Positions 38,304-49,733 of a stretch of DNA of 64,000 nt are shown one piece after another. Position 1 is the first letter of the stretch; every line of letters begins with the position of its first letter. The position numbers and the translations under genes are program-made. The DNA is from Rhodothermales bacterium (GTDB lineage: Bacteria; Bacteroidota; Rhodothermia; Rhodothermales; VXPQ01): NCBI GenBank assembly GCA_951812335.1, contig OX638293.1, positions 1,782,731 to 1,846,730 on the forward strand, given 5' to 3'. The notes under the pieces were generated by a model, which made no database searches, had not been told where the DNA came from, and saw only the letters and a program-made list of their open reading frames with translations.

Positions 38304-39860
38304 ATGGCCAAAAAAAATGACAGTGGCGCGACCGTCGGCTACGAGGCGGAACTCTGGCAAATGGCCAATACGCTTCGCGGCTCCATGGATGCCGCCGAGT
38401 ACAAGCATGTCGTCCTCGGGCTCATCTTCCTGAAGTATATCTCCGACGCGTTCGAAGAACGCCACACCGCGATTCTTGAGGAATGGGGTAAAGAGGCCGC
38501 CGAGGACCGGGACGAATACCTTGCGGAGAACATCTTCTGGGTTCCGCCCGAAGCGCGGTGGGCAAATCTCAAGGTTCAGGCAAGGCAGCCCGTTATCGGG
38601 CAACTCGTGGACGACGCCATGTCGGGAATCGAGCGCGACAACCCGGCGCTCAAGGATGTGCTACCCAAGGACTACGCCCGTCAAGCACTCGACAAGCAGC
38701 GGCTCGGCCAACTCATCGACCTGATCAGCAATATCCGGGTGGGCGATGCCGAATCCCGTTCCAGGGACGTACTGGGCCGTATTTACGAGTACTTCCTGTC
38801 GCAATTCGCCAGCGCCGAGGGCAAGAAGGGCGGCGAGTTTTACACGCCGCGCTGCGTGGTCGAACTGCTCGTCGAAATGATAGAGCCGTACCGGGGCCGC
38901 GTGTACGACCCGTGCTGCGGTTCGTCCGGCATGTTCGTGCAATCGATCGAGTTTATCAACGCCCATGCCAGCGGTAACGGCAACGGCGGCAAAGCATACG
39001 GCGACATCAGCATCTACGGTCAGGAGTCCAACCATACGACCTGGCGGCTCGCCAAAATGAATCTTGCCATTCGGGGCATCGAGGGCCAGATCGCGCACGG
39101 CGACACGTTCCACAACGACCGCCATCCGGACCTCAAAGCCGATTATATCCTCGCCAATCCCCCGTTCAATGTCTCCAATTGGGGCGGCGAGCGGCTTGTC
39201 GACGACCAGCGTTGGAAATACGGCGTTCCGCCCAAGGGCAACGCCAACTTCGCCTGGGTGCAGCACATGGTTTATCATCTTGCGCCAGAAGGCATGGCCG
39301 GTTTCGTGCTGGCGAACGGTTCCATGTCGTCGGGCCAGTCCGGGGAAGGTCAGATCCGGGAGAAACTTGTCGAGGAGGATCTGGTGGATTGCATGGTGGC
39401 GTTACCGGGGCAACTTTTCTATTCGACGCAGATACCGGCCTGCCTGTGGTTTCTTTCGCGCGACCGGGACGGCGGCGGCAACCGGAAATTCCGGGACCGT
39501 CGCGGCGAAATCCTCTTCATAGACGCCCGCAAGCTGGGGCGCATGATAGACCGTACCCACCGGGAGCTTACCAAAGAGGACATCGACCGCATTGCGGAAA
39601 CCTATCATGCCTGGCGCGAGGGACGGGACTACGAAGACACACCCGGTTTCTGCAAGAGCGCCGCGCTGGAGGATGTACGCAAACACGGCCATGTGCTGAC
39701 GCCGGGCCGGTATGTGGGCGTGGAACCGCAGCCGGAGGATACCGAGCCGTTCGACGAGAAGATGCAGCGGCTTGTGGCGGAACTGTGCGAGCAGCAGGCG
39801 GAAGGCACGCGGCTGGACACCGCGATTGCAGAGAACCTGAAATCGCTGGGGTTCGGGTAG
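38304..39860 (+). CDS. hsdM: Type I restriction-modification methyltransferase subunit HsdM
   Basis: HsdM is the N6-adenine methyltransferase subunit that, with HsdS, protects the host sites and also forms part of the restriction complex. It has 518 residues of normal layout: helical N-terminus ([20 protein letters not shown]), [18 protein letters not shown]-binding motif [11 protein letters not shown] at residues 202-212, and the catalytic NPPF at 285-288. ATG 38304 opens the protein with MAKKN. The usual direct hsdM-hsdS junction is broken by a HEPN gene starting 19 bp downstream. Confidence 0.96.
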
Positions 39861-39879: not shown

Positions 39880-40302
39880 ATGAACATCGACACGGCCTAT
39901 CTGAGACGCTGCATCGACACGCTGGAATCCATGTCCGATGCGCTCAATCGCAGTAGCCCGGAGGAAACCGTCTACGACATGTACAGCAATATCTGTATCG
40001 AAAAATTCGAGCTGGTGCTGGAGCAAAGCGGCAAGCTGCTGAAAAAACGCCTTCGTCCGTGGTTCGCCAGTAACCGACAGGCTGATCGTCTTACCTTCAG
40101 GAATACTTTCCGTTATGCCGCCAAGCATGGCTTAATTTCCGCCGACGCCTGCGAGCGTTGGCTGGAATATCGAGACAACCGAAACCACACGGAAAACAAT
40201 TCCGGTCAGGCATTCGCGGAATCCACCTTGAGGCTTCTCCCTGCCTTGGTAGAGGACGCCAGAGCGTTGGTCACCGTCGTTGAGGAATTGAACAATGACT
40301 GA
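39880..40302 (+). CDS. HEPN-type nucleotidyltransferase substrate-binding protein (HI0074 family), putative toxin
   Basis: The 140-residue all-helical protein is of the HI0074/HEPN type that pairs with MNT nucleotidyltransferases. The RX4H motif is visible as RDNRNH at residues 98-103, inside the family segment WLEYRDNRNHTENN. In known HEPN/MNT (type VII) pairs the HEPN protein is an RNase toxin that MntA silences by adding AMP. Here no separate MNT gene exists: the gene overlaps by 8 bp an hsdS whose N-terminus is a MNT domain. The toxin role is inferred from family and context. Confidence 0.82.
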   Translation: MNIDTAYLRRCIDTLESMSDALNRSSPEETVYDMYSNICIEKFELVLEQSGKLLKKRLRPWFASNRQADRLTFRNTFRYAAKHGLISADACERWLEYRDNRNHTENNSGQAFAESTLRLLPALVEDARALVTVVEELNND

Positions 40303-41959
40303 CCCAAGCGCCGGACAACTACCCGCCGCAGGTCGAGCAGACCGGCTGCATCTATCGCCCAGGCATCGAGAGACACTGGAGGCTCTGCTGCGCGAACATC
40401 TGCCCGGAATCGAGGTCTGGGCTTACGGAAGCCGCGTGAACGGCGAGAGTCATGACGGCAGCGACCTAGACCTTGTACTGCGGGCGCCGGGCCTGCAAGA
40501 GGTTCCGATTGGCCCGCTAATCGATTTCACGGAAGCGCTTCATGATTCCACGCTCCCCTTCCTTGTGGAAGCACGCGATTGGACGCGGCTGCCGGAGCGG
40601 TTTCACAAGGAGATTGAGCGGGGGTATGTGGTAATTCAGAATTCAGCCAGTGAAGATGATGCGGATGCATTGAGCGATTGGTGCGAGGTAACGCTTGGCG
40701 AAATTGCTGAAATCGTGGGCGGTAGTACCCCCTCGACCAAGGACCTGGACAACTTTAATGGAGAAATCCCTTGGCTGACTCCAAAAGATCTTTCCGGAAT
40801 TCATGACCGATATATTTCACGAGGCTCACGGAATCTGTCTCAAAAGGGACTTGATAGTTGTTCCGCGAAGTTAGTTCCGGCCAATACCGTGCTATTATCG
40901 ACGAGGGCCCCGATTGGATACGTTGCTATCGCAGCGAATCCCATCAGCACAAATCAGGGCTTTCGCAATCTTGTGACCAGCGAGGATACGTGCTCTGAAT
41001 TCATTTACTATTGGCTGAAGAACAACACCGAAACATTAGAACGCTATGCTTCAGGCTCGACTTTTCGAGAAATTTCAGGATCATCCCTAAAGAAAATCCG
41101 TCTTCGCCTTCCTCCTTTCTCTCAACAACGCGCCATCGCCCACATCCTGGGCACGCTCGACGACAAGATCGAACTGAACCGGCGGATGAACGAAACGCTG
41201 GAAGCAATGGCACGGGCATTGTTCAAGTCGTGGTTTGTCGATTTCGATCCCGTTCGGGCAAAAATGCAAGGTCGCTGGCGCCCCGGCGAATCGTTGCCCG
41301 GCCTTCCGGCGCATCTCTACGATCTTTTTCCGGATCGGCTGGTGGATTCGGAATTGGGAGACATGCCGGAGGGGTGGGAGGTGAAAGAACTGAATGAGTG
41401 CATGCATCTTACTATGGGCCAATCGCCCCCGGGAAATACCTATAACGATAATGGGAAAGGGTTACCCTTTTTCCAGGGGCGAACAGATTTCGGATTTCGA
41501 TATCCAACAAATCGCAAGTACTGCACTGCACCAACCAGGATCGCGGAATGCGACGACACGCTTGTAAGCGTTAGAGCACCGGTAGGCGATATCAACATGG
41601 CCTGGGAGAAGTGCTGCGCTGGGCGAGGAGTTGCGGTTCTCCGTCACAGGTCGGGAGCGCGCTCCTTTACCTACTATTCGGCATGGGCGATACAGCAGGA
41701 GTTGAGGCAGTACGAACACAGCGGGACGGTTTTTGGCGCAATCAACAAGAAACAATTCGAGGGCCTGAGCATCGTCGAACCGACTCCAGAGATACTCACC
41801 CGTTTTGAAAGCCAAGTTGGCCCCATAGATGACTGTATCAGGAAGAACGTTTACGAGAACAGAACCCTTGTAAATATCCGTGATTTGCTCCTTCCCAATC
41901 TCATGTCCGGCGAAGTCCGCCTCCGCGAGGCCCCAAAAACAATAGAGGCTGTGGCATGA
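40295..41959 (+). CDS. hsdS: MNT nucleotidyltransferase domain fused to type I specificity subunit HsdS
   Basis: In this 554-residue fusion, residues 20-115 are a MNT domain with an intact GSX10DXD motif (Gly45-Ser46 to Asp57 and Asp59) and the usual LPERFHKEIERGYVVI close. Residues from about 130 are a full HsdS: target-recognition domain 1 (VTLGEIAEIVGGSTPST and PWLTPKDLS), central conserved helices (LGTLDDKIELNRRMNETLEA), domain 2 starting at GWEVKELNECMHLTMGQSPP and the distal repeat (LLLPNLMSGEVRL). HsdS chooses the DNA sequence and holds HsdM and HsdR. The fusion joins the antitoxin-type enzyme to the specificity subunit. The coding is continuous with no frameshift, so it is not a chance read-through. 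The stop overlaps the next gene's ATG. Confidence 0.93.
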   Translation: MTDPSAGQLPAAGRADRLHLSPRHRETLEALLREHLPGIEVWAYGSRVNGESHDGSDLDLVLRAPGLQEVPIGPLIDFTEALHDSTLPFLVEARDWTRLPERFHKEIERGYVVIQNSASEDDADALSDWCEVTLGEIAEIVGGSTPSTKDLDNFNGEIPWLTPKDLSGIHDRYISRGSRNLSQKGLDSCSAKLVPANTVLLSTRAPIGYVAIAANPISTNQGFRNLVTSEDTCSEFIYYWLKNNTETLERYASGSTFREISGSSLKKIRLRLPPFSQQRAIAHILGTLDDKIELNRRMNETLEAMARALFKSWFVDFDPVRAKMQGRWRPGESLPGLPAHLYDLFPDRLVDSELGDMPEGWEVKELNECMHLTMGQSPPGNTYNDNGKGLPFFQGRTDFGFRYPTNRKYCTAPTRIAECDDTLVSVRAPVGDINMAWEKCCAGRGVAVLRHRSGARSFTYYSAWAIQQELRQYEHSGTVFGAINKKQFEGLSIVEPTPEILTRFESQVGPIDDCIRKNVYENRTLVNIRDLLLPNLMSGEVRLREAPKTIEAVA

Positions 41960-42783
41960 GTTCCTTAACGGACACCGAGAAGCGTTATTTCGAAAAGCTG
42001 TTCGATATGGGTGGAGGCTATGTCCTCGATTTCACCAACGACTCGTTTGGTGAGTTCTTCGGACGGCACAATGTCGATATCCACGGGCATAAATATCATT
42101 TCAAATCGTCCAAGGCTAAGAAGCTCCGTGCTTTCTGGAAAGTTGAATCCGATGAGTTGGTGGGAAGCGTGCTCTCGGAAATGCTGAATTCCTACGAGGC
42201 TTACTGTGAATTAAATGGCGAGGACATTGACAATTCCATCCTAGAGAAAGCGCGAGGCATCGTTGGGCGTTTGACCGGACAATCCGTTGCCCCCACGTCT
42301 CCCCAGGCGGAAGACGAGTTTCTGAACCGTGAGTTTATCATTCCGCATATCCAAAAGTTGCCAATTGATCCGCAGGTCGTGTCGATCATCGAGGCAAGGC
42401 TAAATGAGGCCCGCACAGTACTCGGGGCCGGTGCACATTTGTCAGTCATTTTTCTCTGCGGTAGTGTCTTGGAGGCGGTCCTGCTTGGAGCGGCTAATGC
42501 GGACCCAAGAAGATTCAACCAAGCGAAAGCAACACCGAAGTCGCGGGATGGTTCGCCGAAACACTTCCACGAATGGACCTTGGCCCAGTTGATCGATGTT
42601 GCTTGCGAAGTCGGTGTTCTGAAACTTGACGTTAAGAAATTTAGCCATGGCCTGCGTGACTTTCGGAATTATATTCACCCTTATGAGCAGATGGCTTCGG
42701 GCTTCACGCCGGATGAACACACTGCCAAAGTCTGCTTTCAAATCCTGAAGGCAGCCCTTGCCGGTGTGGCGGGAGAGAGATAA
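41956..42783 (+). CDS. Unnamed protein with C-terminal HEPN-like motif, defence-associated
   Basis: I do not recognise a named family. The N-terminal 85 residues (GGGYVLDFTNDSFGEFF, FKSSKAKKLRAFWKVESDEL) resemble, from memory, an N-terminal module of several abortive-infection-type proteins. The C-terminal half (about 140-270) is helical with LSVIFLCGSVLEAVLL and ends near LRDFRNYIHPYEQ. There R234 and H241 fit an RX6H HEPN pattern, as in DUF4145-like RNases. Its ATG overlaps the stop of hsdS by 4 bp, so it is translated together with the specificity subunit. A role as effector or regulator in the restriction locus is inference. Confidence 0.5.
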   Translation: MSSLTDTEKRYFEKLFDMGGGYVLDFTNDSFGEFFGRHNVDIHGHKYHFKSSKAKKLRAFWKVESDELVGSVLSEMLNSYEAYCELNGEDIDNSILEKARGIVGRLTGQSVAPTSPQAEDEFLNREFIIPHIQKLPIDPQVVSIIEARLNEARTVLGAGAHLSVIFLCGSVLEAVLLGAANADPRRFNQAKATPKSRDGSPKHFHEWTLAQLIDVACEVGVLKLDVKKFSHGLRDFRNYIHPYEQMASGFTPDEHTAKVCFQILKAALAGVAGER

Positions 42784-42844: not shown

Positions 42845-43314
42845 AAGATGAAGCCCCGATCATTGTCTGGAATCCTGGCCGCATTTTTACGACCTCTTTC
42901 CCAACAGGCTGGTGGAGTCGAAAGTGGGGGAATACCGGAGGGGAGGAGAGTGAAATCGCTGGAAGAGATGGTGATGAGAGGTGGTTCGGGTTGATTGGAC
43001 AGATTTTGGTGGAATACCCATACCCACTGGGCCGAGACACAGATTTTAGAGAGCACGCGATCCAGAACACGGCGGGAACCTCGGGGCGACAACGTGTTCA
43101 AGTCAATGCATTGACACCGTATTTGCTTCCTTGCCCTACAGTGGGGTTTTGGGCCAAGTTCAGTTCACTAGTCAGCCCTATGTTCGGAAACATTGAGGCA
43201 ACCCGCAAAGAGTTTCGAACTCTTGCTTCCTTACGCGATGCGCTGCTGCCGAAACTCATCTTTGGCGAACTACGCATCAAGGCCGAGAAACAGCTTATCG
43301 AGAGGGCTGTCTAA
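42845..43314 (+). pseudogene. Second hsdS remnant (second half, frameshifted)
   Basis: Starting near 42848 the text follows the middle of the intact hsdS, but in pieces from different frames: LSGILAAF, then PHFYDLFPNRLVESKVGE, then PEGRRVKSLEEM. The last 100 codons are open (NTAGTSGRQRVQVNALTPYL, then a stretch ending [20 protein letters not shown]), which is the distal target-recognition domain and conserved C-terminus of an HsdS. The intervening part of the domain is deleted. Its stop (TAA) overlaps the ATG of the next gene (TAATG). This is a dead second specificity gene, from a duplication or replacement. Confidence 0.78.
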
Positions 43315-43763
43315 TGGCCAAGACCGACCTGACTCAAGCCGAGGCCGATGCCCTGATAACTATGGAGAAGCATCGCGTCAATGAGGAACTCAGTAGCTTC
43401 CCGGTCAATGGGGAAGCGATCGTCCTGCCGCTTCAATCGGTCGATCAGCGCGAGCAGTTTCTGCTCGACCTAAGCCGAGGCCGTATCGATCTGCGCAAGG
43501 TCAAAATGCAAAGCAGGGGGCGTCAGGTCGTCGTGCTATTGCGGCTTGATCTGGGCGGTGCACCGCACCGTAACCCGGATGACGAAGAAATTCCCGCTCC
43601 GCATCTGCACATCTACCGAGAAGGCTACGGGGACAAATGGGCCGTGCCAGTGCCGCCAGACCGCTTCGGCAATCTTGCTGACATCTGGCAAACGTTCTCA
43701 GACTTCATGGGATACTGCAACATCACACAGCCGCCCCGTATCCAGCGAGGGCTGTTTACATGA
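43314..43763 (+). CDS. DUF6978-like protein
   Basis: The 149-residue protein has no signal peptide. It starts [20 protein letters not shown] and carries [20 protein letters not shown], then [20 protein letters not shown], and a helical end [15 protein letters not shown]. This matches what I know as DUF6978. The histidines in PHLHIY could be functional, as in small nucleases or RNA-binding toxins, but no activity is established. Its stop overlaps the ATG of the DUF1828 gene by 4 bp, and the two look like one two-gene unit carried in the restriction locus. Confidence 0.7.
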
Positions 43764-44524
43764 TTCAGGATATCCAGCAGTTGCTTGACGACTACTATGC
43801 TTGGCTCAAAAGCAAGGCCGCTTTACGACAAATCGACCAGTGGGTGGAAATCACGACACCTTACCTTGATCGACACAACGACTACGTGCAAATCTATGCA
43901 AGGCAAGCGAATGGTAGATTTGTCCTCACCGATGACGGCTATACGATCAACGACTTAGAGCAGAGCGGATGCAATCTCGAAAGCCCAAAGCGGCAGGAGT
44001 TGTTGCGAATAACTCTCAACGGCTTCGGCGTTCAGATGGACGGAAAGATGCTCCAAGTTCATGCGTCGCCAAACGACTTCGCGCTAAGAAAGCATAATCT
44101 GGTGCAGGCGATGCTTGCTGTGAACGACATGTTTTATCTGGCCGTATCCACGGTGGCGAGCTTGTTCGAGGAGGATGTGGCCGCATGGCTTGACGTTAAC
44201 GAGATTCGTTATACGCCGAGGGTCAAGTTCACCGGAAAAACGGGGTACGATCACCTGTTCAATTTCGTGATTCCCAAGTCGCGACTGCAACCGGAACGAA
44301 TTGTCCGAACAATCAACAAGCCGAATCGAGACACGGCGCAGTCGGTTGTGCTCTCCTGGATCGATACTAGGGATGTGCGCTCCCCGGAATCGCGTGCTTA
44401 TGCGCTGCTAAACGACTCGGAGCGCTCCGTATCTCCTGCTGTCGAGGATGCTTTGCGGAGCTACGAGGTTTGTCCCGTACCGTGGAGCCAGCGAGCGGAC
44501 GTGATGGAGGAACTGGCAGCGTGA
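43760..44524 (+). CDS. DUF1828/DUF1829 domain protein
   Basis: The 254-residue protein has an N-terminal DUF1828 pattern ([20 protein letters not shown] and [17 protein letters not shown], residues about 30-70) and a C-terminal DUF1829 pattern ([18 protein letters not shown], residues about 155-172, then [14 protein letters not shown]). Both are families of unknown function found together on mobile and defence-rich DNA. The close coupling with the upstream DUF6978-like gene (ATGA overlap) suggests a toxin-antitoxin or other two-component module. I cannot say which half is active. Confidence 0.72.
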
Positions 44525-44634
44525 ACGCTACTGGCGTTGCCGAATTTGTCGTTAATGAAATCGCCCTCGCCTGGATATCGAGAGAATCGACCCACATCAG
44601 GCCCCTTCCTCCCCCCGAAACCTTTCAATTAACC

Positions 44635-44652
44635 GCAAGGTAACCACCTTGC
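44635..44652. other. Perfect 7-bp palindrome, possible small hairpin
   Basis: GCAAGGT (44635-44641) and ACCTTGC (44646-44652) flank a 4-base loop. Related text (AAAGGTTGCAATCA) follows. It lies between the DUF1828 gene and the ATPase gene. There is no T-run, so an operator or junction scar is as likely as a terminator. Confidence 0.3.
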
Positions 44653-44684
44653 AATCAACCGAACCTAAAGGTTGCAATCAGCCG

Positions 44685-44813
44685 ATGTCCATGCCAGACT
44701 TCAATCTCCTGCACGTCCAGCGCCCACTCGCGGAGGCGCTGGAAGGCCCCCCTGTCGTGTTGAGTTACGACCCGCGCCAGTGCGGCAAAAACCCTGTTCC
44801 AGATTGGAGCTAA
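44685..44813 (+). pseudogene. Fragment of an AAA_14/DUF4143-type ATPase N-terminus
   Basis: A 42-codon frame begins MSMPDFNLLHVQRPLAEALE and reads PPVVLSYDPRQCGKNP before a stop. In DUF4143-type ATPases this position reads GPRQCGKTT, the P-loop. Here the P-loop is altered and the rest of the protein is missing. This is a small leftover of a gene that once stood at this site, ending 6 bp upstream of the intact ATPase gene. The remaining sequence back to 44525 holds no gene. Confidence 0.5.
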
Positions 44814-44819
44814 CAAATT

Positions 44820-45911
44820 ATGGCTGGTCTAGACCGCCTTTCCGTTCGCGGCTTCAAATCTATCCGTGCGCTCGAAGACTTCGAACCGAAGAACTTGAAC
44901 GTCCTTATCGGCCCGAACGGCGCCGGAAAATCCAATTTCATCAGCCTGTTCCACATGCTGGCGCACATAGTAGAGGAACGCTTGCAGTCCTTTGTTACCT
45001 CACAGGATGGGCCAGACACCCTTCTATTCGGCGGCAGAAAGCAAACCAAACGCATTGATGTTAATCTCAAATTCGGCCGAAACGCCTATCAATTCTCTCT
45101 TGTGCCTGCCGGAAAAAACCTTGCCTTTGATCAAGAATTGACCCACTTTTTTGGCGATTGGAAGGATTCCATACATTACCTCGGAATGGGACACATGGAA
45201 TCGAACCTTAAAAACGCTATCGAAAAAAAGAAAGACAGCTTTGCGCCCTATGTACGATCCGCCATGAAAGAATGGCGTGTATACCACTTTCATGACACCA
45301 GTGTAGAAGCGCGGGTGCGGCAAGCATCGGCAGTGCGTGACAATCTTTCGCTAAAACCGGACGCAGGCAATCTTGCCGCCTTTCTGCGCCGCTTGCGTGA
45401 ACTTTCCCCAGATAATTATAGACATATCGTCGAGACGGTGCGATTTGCGGCACCGTTCTTTGGAGATTTCGTCTATCGAGAGGATGAGAGCGAAAACATA
45501 GAACTCGAATGGTTCGAAACGAACGACCCCGATACGGTGCGCGGGCCGCGCCAACTTTCGGACGGTACACTACGCTTTATCTGCTTGGCAACGCTTCTTC
45601 TTCAACCAGTACACCGTCAACCGGATTTGATCCTGATTGACGAACCGGAATTGGGCCTGCACCCCTACGCGATTACTTTGTTGGCCGGAATGCTTCAGCA
45701 GGTCAGCGATTCAAAGCAGATCATTGTCTCGACCCAATCGGCGGATCTCATAAGCCAAATTGACCCTGAAGATGTCGTGGTGGTGGACCGGAAGGACGGT
45801 GCCTCTACCTTCACCAGATTGAACGAGGAGGACCTGAAGGACTGGCTGGAAGACTATGGATTGGGCGATTTGTGGAAAATGAATATATTCGGCGGCAGGC
45901 CCGGACAATGA
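44820..45911 (+). CDS. AAA (ABC/SMC-type) ATPase, AAA_21-like, defence-associated
   Basis: This is a 363-residue cytoplasmic ATPase with split ABC-type halves. It shows LSVRGFKSIRALEDFEPKNL and Walker A GPNGAGKS (residues 31-38) at the N-terminus. An insertion of about 150 residues without obvious coiled coil follows, then the ABC signature-like QLSDGTLRF (245-253), Walker B LILIDEPE (270-277) and an H-loop-type motif VSTQSADLI. This architecture is shared with OLD-like and PARIS-like ATPases that sense phage. Its stop overlaps the ATG of the DUF4276 gene, so the two form a unit. Confidence 0.85.
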   Translation: MAGLDRLSVRGFKSIRALEDFEPKNLNVLIGPNGAGKSNFISLFHMLAHIVEERLQSFVTSQDGPDTLLFGGRKQTKRIDVNLKFGRNAYQFSLVPAGKNLAFDQELTHFFGDWKDSIHYLGMGHMESNLKNAIEKKKDSFAPYVRSAMKEWRVYHFHDTSVEARVRQASAVRDNLSLKPDAGNLAAFLRRLRELSPDNYRHIVETVRFAAPFFGDFVYREDESENIELEWFETNDPDTVRGPRQLSDGTLRFICLATLLLQPVHRQPDLILIDEPELGLHPYAITLLAGMLQQVSDSKQIIVSTQSADLISQIDPEDVVVVDRKDGASTFTRLNEEDLKDWLEDYGLGDLWKMNIFGGRPGQ

Positions 45912-46588
45912 ACAATATCCATATCGTTGTCGTGTGTGAAGGTGAGACAGAAGAAACCTTCGTGAAAAGAATCCTTGCCCCGGACCTTGGGAACAAGGGC
46001 GTGTTCGTCATGCCCACGTTGGTTGATTCACGGGGCGGCAACCTAAAAGGGCAGCGGGTGCTGCGCTACCTTCGCAATACCCTTCGAACACGACAGAATG
46101 CCTACGTGACGACCTTCTTCGATTTGTACAGATTACCCCCAGACTTTCCGGGCCAGGTAAAAGTCGCTGTGCATACCAATCCGCTGGATCGGGCCACGAA
46201 AATCGAAACAGGATTCCATACGGAAGTCATCGAGAAGGTGCATTGCCACCCGGAGCAGTTTTTTCCTCATATTCAGCCTTATGAATTCGAAGCATTGCTG
46301 TTTTCAGATACGGCACAGTTCCCCAGAGAAGAGCCCGCCTGGCAACGACATGTCCACAAACTGGAAATCGCCCGACAATCGGCTGATAGCCCTGAGCACA
46401 TAAACGATGGCCCTGAAACACACCCTTCGGCTCTGCTGGAGCGAATACTTCCCCTCTATAACAAAGTGCGCCACGGAACAGCCTTGTCCAGCAAAATAGG
46501 CCTTGACCGCATCCGCGCCGAATGCAAGCACTTCGATGCCTGGCTGACCCGCATGGAAACCCTGCCCCCTTTCCAGCCGGAAGCCTGA
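45908..46588 (+). CDS. DUF4276 family protein, TOPRIM-like
   Basis: The 226-residue protein begins [20 protein letters not shown]. The EGETE cluster (residues 11-15) after a buried beta strand is like the first acidic motif of TOPRIM nucleases. The segment [15 protein letters not shown] (about residues 118-132) is the DUF4276 hallmark. The pairing of an ABC-type ATPase with a TOPRIM-like partner recalls OLD/PARIS-type defence modules, in which the ATPase holds the nuclease until triggered. ATG 45908 overlaps the ATPase stop; the frame open further upstream is not needed. Nuclease activity is inference. Confidence 0.8.
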
Positions 46589-46592
46589 CCCC

Positions 46593-49733
<3,141 letters not shown>

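Follow-up and report, generated by a model that had tools for sequence, protein, structure and literature searches.

The gene pair described here lies in a 64,000-nucleotide stretch of DNA (the window). It is best read as a two-gene ABC-ATPase/TOPRIM defence unit that corresponds to the candidate system HEC-01 and has a type I restriction-modification (RM) operon as its carrier, where, as cargo, it would act as an ATPase-gated nuclease in an abortive-type defence. We give this reading a probability of about two in three. The coordinates of the pair and of the surrounding operon are listed in Table 1.

Table 1. Features of the type I RM operon and of the embedded HEC-01 pair in the window.
Feature	Position	Strand	Evidence or remark
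HsdM, type I methyltransferase	38304..39860	+	ORF, NPPF motif read from sequence; homologues adjoin HsdS/HsdR in relatives
HEPN/NTase-substrate-binding-like protein	39880..40302	+	PF08780 7.2e-11
HsdS with N-terminal MNT-type nucleotidyltransferase domain	40295..41959	+	Methylase_S 1e-44; NTP_transf_2 8e-5
DUF6978, PDC-M24A	43314..43763	+	PADLOC 7.4e-58
DUF1828/DUF1829, PDC-M24B	43760..44524	+	PADLOC 2.3e-104
PDC-S01 ATPase gene 5' remnant (first ~35 codons and a short tail without similarity)	44685..44813	+	
ABC/OLD-type ATPase, HEC-01A	44820..45911	+	363 aa, intact ORF; PADLOC and Pfam
ATGA stop/start overlap	45908..45911	+	ATPase stop / DUF4276 start
DUF4276 protein, HEC-01B, predicted TOPRIM nuclease	45908..46588	+	226 aa, intact ORF; Pfam PF14103, PADLOC, AF2
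HsdR, type I restriction subunit	46593..49733	+	Pfam HSDR_N, SWI2_SNF2, T1RH-like_C

The ATPase showed a Walker A motif GPNGAGKSN (residues 31–39), a signature motif LSDGTLR (residues 246–252) and a Walker B motif LILIDEPELGLHP, which includes E275, and an STQS sequence replaces the H-loop. The Walker A, signature and Walker B motifs had been named in a preceding reading of the letters alone (the sequence-only reading); all are present, and they are invariant or nearly so in relatives, residues G31, N33, G36, K37, S247, G249, R252, D274, E275 and H281 being invariant in a set of 33 pairs. The overlap of the ATPase stop with the start of the next gene, noted in the same reading, was found as an ATGA, and translational coupling of the two genes is likely from it. 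The ATG at 45908 was chosen as the DUF4276 start over an upstream GTG at 45872, since relatives show the same kind of overlap.

Comparison with Pfam gave E-values of 1.4e-27 for the ATPase (AAA_21) and 1.6e-48 for its partner (PF14103, DUF4276), and comparison with PADLOC gave 1.7e-139 against HEC-01A, covering residues 3–361 of 363, and 1.6e-68 against HEC-01B, covering residues 4–219. With these values, the matches of the two proteins are not due to chance. HEC-01 is a PADLOC candidate (Hma-embedded candidate 1) of which both families were matched full length by two genes side by side, and by gene content the pair belongs to it, the difference being that the host of the window pair is a type I RM operon. 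A search of published papers found no anti-phage test of HEC-01, and a literature search for DUF4276 gave zero matches; HEC-01 appears solely as a detection (PMC12724379), and anti-phage tests are mentioned for HEC-06 (PMC12988326) and for HEC-05/HEC-06 (PMC11411939).

Among 30 DUF4276 relatives, E11, G12, E15, D72 and E126 were invariant, T14, E128 and Y74 showed hardly any variation, and position 13 was free (Q, P, D or K); K186 was near-invariant among the relatives. The glutamate after strand 1, E11, was present in every aligned member of the family, and D72 was invariant in one alignment (A1) and conserved at no less than 90% in another (A10). The sequence EGETEE, at residues 11–16 of the window protein, had been likened to the acidic cluster of TOPRIM nucleases. 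The comparison held for E11, invariant and aligned to a catalytic glutamate (see below), but not for E13, which is not conserved; as judged from the alignments, E11 has its conserved partner in E15, and the TOPRIM motif is non-canonical. Likewise, the motif after strand 3 is DxY, its tyrosine being Y74, as against the canonical TOPRIM DxD.

An AlphaFold (AF2) model of the DUF4276 protein, for which the window protein and four natural relatives were used as input, had a pLDDT of 89.7 and a pTM of 0.88. The modelled chain runs strand-helix-strand-helix-strand and continues into a helical domain, with E11 after strand 1 and D72 at the end of strand 3, which is the TOPRIM arrangement. In VIA-align, the best match to the model was the BpOLD TOPRIM (Z 8.5, rmsd 4.7, 181 residues), followed by the XccOLD TOPRIM (Z 8.1, rmsd 4.5, 175 residues) and PARIS AriB 8ux9_A (Z 8.0, rmsd 4.4, 177 residues), values of Z 8–8.5 being slightly above the noise level quoted for that tool, by a modest margin; retron Eco8 and GajA ranked close after AriB. 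The alignments with OLD and AriB TOPRIM domains span 173–181 residues, and unrelated Rossmann-type folds reached Z of at most 7.5 across about 90–135 residues. Asparaginases and lumazine synthases, which also appeared in the VIA-align output, were set aside as common Rossmann-type matches, shorter and lower-scoring. No significant match of the DUF4276 fold was obtained with Foldseek against PDB and BFVD, the best viral (BFVD) model match being an RloB-like protein, not significant alone, and no DUF4276 relative was found by sequence search of the PDB.

The alignments start with residue 4 on 393 and residue 2 on 17, respectively, a register that matches E11 with E400 of BpOLD and E26 of AriB; each of these is a catalytic TOPRIM glutamate (PMC6755086, PMC12409363). 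The active site of BpOLD, a class 2 OLD protein, also comprises E404, D455, D457, T506, E508 and K562, and single ligand changes in it are tolerated and do not abolish activity (PMC6755086). DUF4276 residues E15, D72, E126, E128 and K186 follow in the same order as the BpOLD ligands and lysine, with which they are presumed to pair, VIA-align reporting aligned ranges only and not residue pairs. The only departure is Y74 in the place of the second DxD aspartate; since BpOLD stays active after single ligand changes, catalysis is compatible with it.

Profile comparison pointed in the same direction. Alignment of DUF4276 with OLD TOPRIM domains from the same phylum paired the xxVEGxTE motifs with a probability of 61 and a score of 36.1, and the best score of 100 column-shuffled OLD profiles in hhalign against DUF4276 was 14.7, apart from one shuffle scoring 133 over 12 end columns, which was inspected and judged to be an edge artefact. 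OLD-like_TOPRIM was weakly matched by 8 of 34 DUF4276 members (best E 0.0014); single members matched RloB or OLD-like_TOPRIM_1, and no other family was as frequent. The VIA-align results, the active-site register and the profile evidence together support a predicted TOPRIM-like fold for DUF4276, as the sequence-only reading had proposed.

The model of the ATPase was of middling confidence (pLDDT 66), and its head aligned with SMC, RecN, AriA (Z 17.1) and TsOLD (Z 16.6), of which TsOLD was the best PDB match of the ATPase by sequence. A gene for this ATPase lies directly upstream, on the same strand and with overlapping ends, for nearly every surveyed DUF4276 gene. The distance matrices of the two proteins were correlated with an r of 0.88 (33 pairs; permutation maximum 0.36), and by this measure of sequence divergence the ATPase and the DUF4276 protein co-evolve.

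The layout had also been compared with PARIS and OLD systems, and this parallel stood as a resemblance of the models to AriA, AriB and OLD, but not as membership. PARIS likewise consists of separate ABC ATPase and TOPRIM genes, with E11 aligned to AriB E26; however, AriB is a DUF4435 (PF14491) protein and the match of the window ATPase to AriA is much poorer than that to HEC-01A. The window DUF4276 protein, searched against families up to E 10, matched DUF4276 only and not DUF4435, and PARIS was rejected for want of a DUF4435 partner. HEC-01 is already catalogued as a candidate, and its DUF4276 effector family differs from that of PARIS. OLD and Gabija GajA share the OLD-type ABC head, and the window TOPRIM is predicted to be class 2-like with a helical domain, but the window pair consists of two ORFs in contrast to a fused protein and has DxY instead of DxD. 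Membership in OLD or Gabija was rejected, the pair being not fused and its neighbours being DUF1828/1829 and HsdR, with no GajB helicase; a GajA family search of the phylum gave no match, but as it gave none in its control genomes either, it carries no weight. AbiL (AbiLi/AbiLii) and RloA/RloB resemble the pair as an ATPase with a small TOPRIM-like partner, Rlo genes being R-linked. The window ATPase, however, matched AbiLi weakly (1.2e-22), with no AbiLii match, and the RloB profile was not matched by the window DUF4276 protein. AbiL was thus rejected, with HEC-01B as the only PADLOC match of the DUF4276 protein and no AbiLii. The pair probably works like PARIS, OLD/Gabija and AbiL, though it is not a member of them.

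In the window, the HEC-01 pair lies between HsdS and HsdR, and the operon also carries a second embedded candidate, PDC-M24. That the pair is cargo of this operon, alongside PDC-M24 and in a slot with variable contents, was not mentioned in the sequence-only reading. Upstream of the slot (39880–41959), a HEPN-type protein with the RX4H motif RDNRNH precedes an MNT domain (GS...SDLDL) that is N-terminally fused to HsdS, and from these motifs a HEPN-MNT toxin-antitoxin pair seems to have merged into the specificity subunit; the arrangement was also seen in a locus of the same genus (L115) and, diverged, in L119. A 275-aa protein encoded at 41956–42783, with no Pfam or PADLOC match, also stands directly after HsdS in the type I operons of L115, L116 and L128. 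Between its gene and that of DUF6978, an apparent HsdS 3' remnant (42888–43314) hints at past HsdS recombination.

Relatives that share this HsdR differ in what lies between it and HsdS: the slot is empty in L119 and holds an OLD-like protein in L121, PDC-S06 in L122 and an ATPase sized like PDC-S06 in L125. In the same-genus L115 it contains PDC-M02B and PDC-S01, with HsdS and HsdR intact, and the slot ATPase there, encoded by an intact gene, matched PADLOC PDC-S01 at 1.6e-154. DNA comparison of the window (44613–44790) with L115 (6823–6997) gave 77.5% identity over 178 bp (E 4e-33). The match spans the upstream region and the first ~35 codons of PDC-S01, and the DNA before it is conserved across the DUF1828 gene. 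Since the similarity to L115 breaks at 44790 and resumes at 46606, inside HsdR, a stump of PDC-S01 has been kept with HEC-01 in its place. This is direct evidence that HEC-01 occupies the former place of PDC-S01 and that cargo was exchanged in the RM slot.

The survey of ATPase-DUF4276 neighbourhoods that had been suggested showed type I, type III, BREX and Hma-like operons to be recurrent hosts, and neither a non-TOPRIM fold nor a pair lying mostly away from defence genes was found. Related pairs were located between Mod and Res in type III operons (L054, L056, L077). In L074 the pair follows Res-Mod and precedes Mrr, in L076 it belongs to an SNF2-helicase/methylase, Hma-like locus, and in the BREX loci L040, L046 and L047 it is flanked by a PglX-like gene and PglZ. 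One pair adjoins HsdR (L031), another lies in a type I locus (L052), and a diverged form is found downstream of HsdR (L128–L133). DUF4276 occurs in about one fifth of the sampled genomes of the phylum and within 2.1 kb of the HsdR family of the window in 7 of about 150 places, where about 0.2 would be expected by a rough estimate. Many copies in the surveyed phylum, mostly from one bacterial family, were without a recognised RM neighbour; RM linkage of the pair is common, not universal. Copies also occur on plasmids and in phage-like contigs, one pair being alone on a small Acinetobacter plasmid; no match was found in phage GenBank records. In a Mu-like phage/prophage contig (L082, 4898–6660), a HEC-01 pair adjoins a repressor, with a transposase nearby. 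The ATPase and DUF4276 genes of L055 (7322–8902, reverse complement) are separated by a type III-like methyltransferase gene, and the DUF4276 protein is without the EGxTE start.

That the pair shares an operon with HsdS and HsdR and stands between them, and that pairs occur inside type III and BREX operons, would fit an accessory role in the type I RM machinery, helping or regulating restriction and not acting alone. We consider this unlikely, as the hosts of the pair are unrelated to one another (type I, type III, BREX, Hma-like), as it also occurs by itself on the Acinetobacter plasmid and in a prophage, and as the same-genus relative has other genes in the slot while HsdS and HsdR are intact. 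The AAA_21 family is described as a putative AbiEii toxin, and pairs occur on plasmids and near TA genes, so that a toxin-antitoxin-like addiction module was also considered, which would stabilise a mobile element or the RM locus and protect against phage only incidentally. It is improbable, given that the anti-phage system PARIS has the layout seen here, an ABC ATPase and a partner predicted to be TOPRIM, that no small labile antitoxin is present and that the operons in which the pair is repeatedly embedded are defence operons.

That DUF4276 lacks nuclease activity and serves as a Rossmann-like binding or regulatory protein appears very unlikely, although DxY replaces DxD and Foldseek gave no significant match. 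Against it stand the invariant E11, E15 and D72 and the near-invariant E126, E128 and K186 (E126 itself invariant among the 30 relatives), in the order of class 2 OLD E400, E404, D455, E508 and K562, and the tolerance of class 2 OLD to single ligand changes (PMC6755086).

For the preferred reading, an ATPase-gated TOPRIM defence unit, we infer nuclease activity, ATPase gating, a phage trigger and an abortive outcome. PARIS is triggered by an Ocr-like anti-restriction protein. Its ATPase AriA recognises an anti-restriction protein of the phage, and tRNA is cut by AriB (PMC12409363, PMC12839542); by analogy with AriA/AriB the ATPase would hold the DUF4276 protein and then activate it on a phage signal. 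The ATPase would assemble via its SMC/OLD-type heads and keep the DUF4276 protein inactive until a phage-derived trigger was sensed in an ATP-dependent manner, whereupon the partner would be released or activated. As a putative two-metal TOPRIM nuclease with E11/E15, D72, E126/E128 and K186, the activated protein would cut nucleic acid (tRNA or DNA) and halt the infection, probably at a cost to the cell. A more speculative and rather doubtful extension is that HEC-01 might be a general restriction guard, sensing phage inhibition of host restriction and firing a suicidal nuclease; just as tentatively, its recurrent settling in type I, type III, BREX and Hma operons might be due to this sensing role. 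The guard idea shares its logic with the argument that OLD-ATPase/nuclease modules are back-up effectors inside BREX systems (PMC12839542).

DUF4276 has so far been annotated merely as a domain of unknown function. The active site predicted here names the exact residues to test, and DUF4276 would represent a separate effector family for ATPase-gated TOPRIM systems. At the RM slot, where PDC-S01 is truncated, one catalogued defence candidate clearly stands in the former place of another within a restriction operon.
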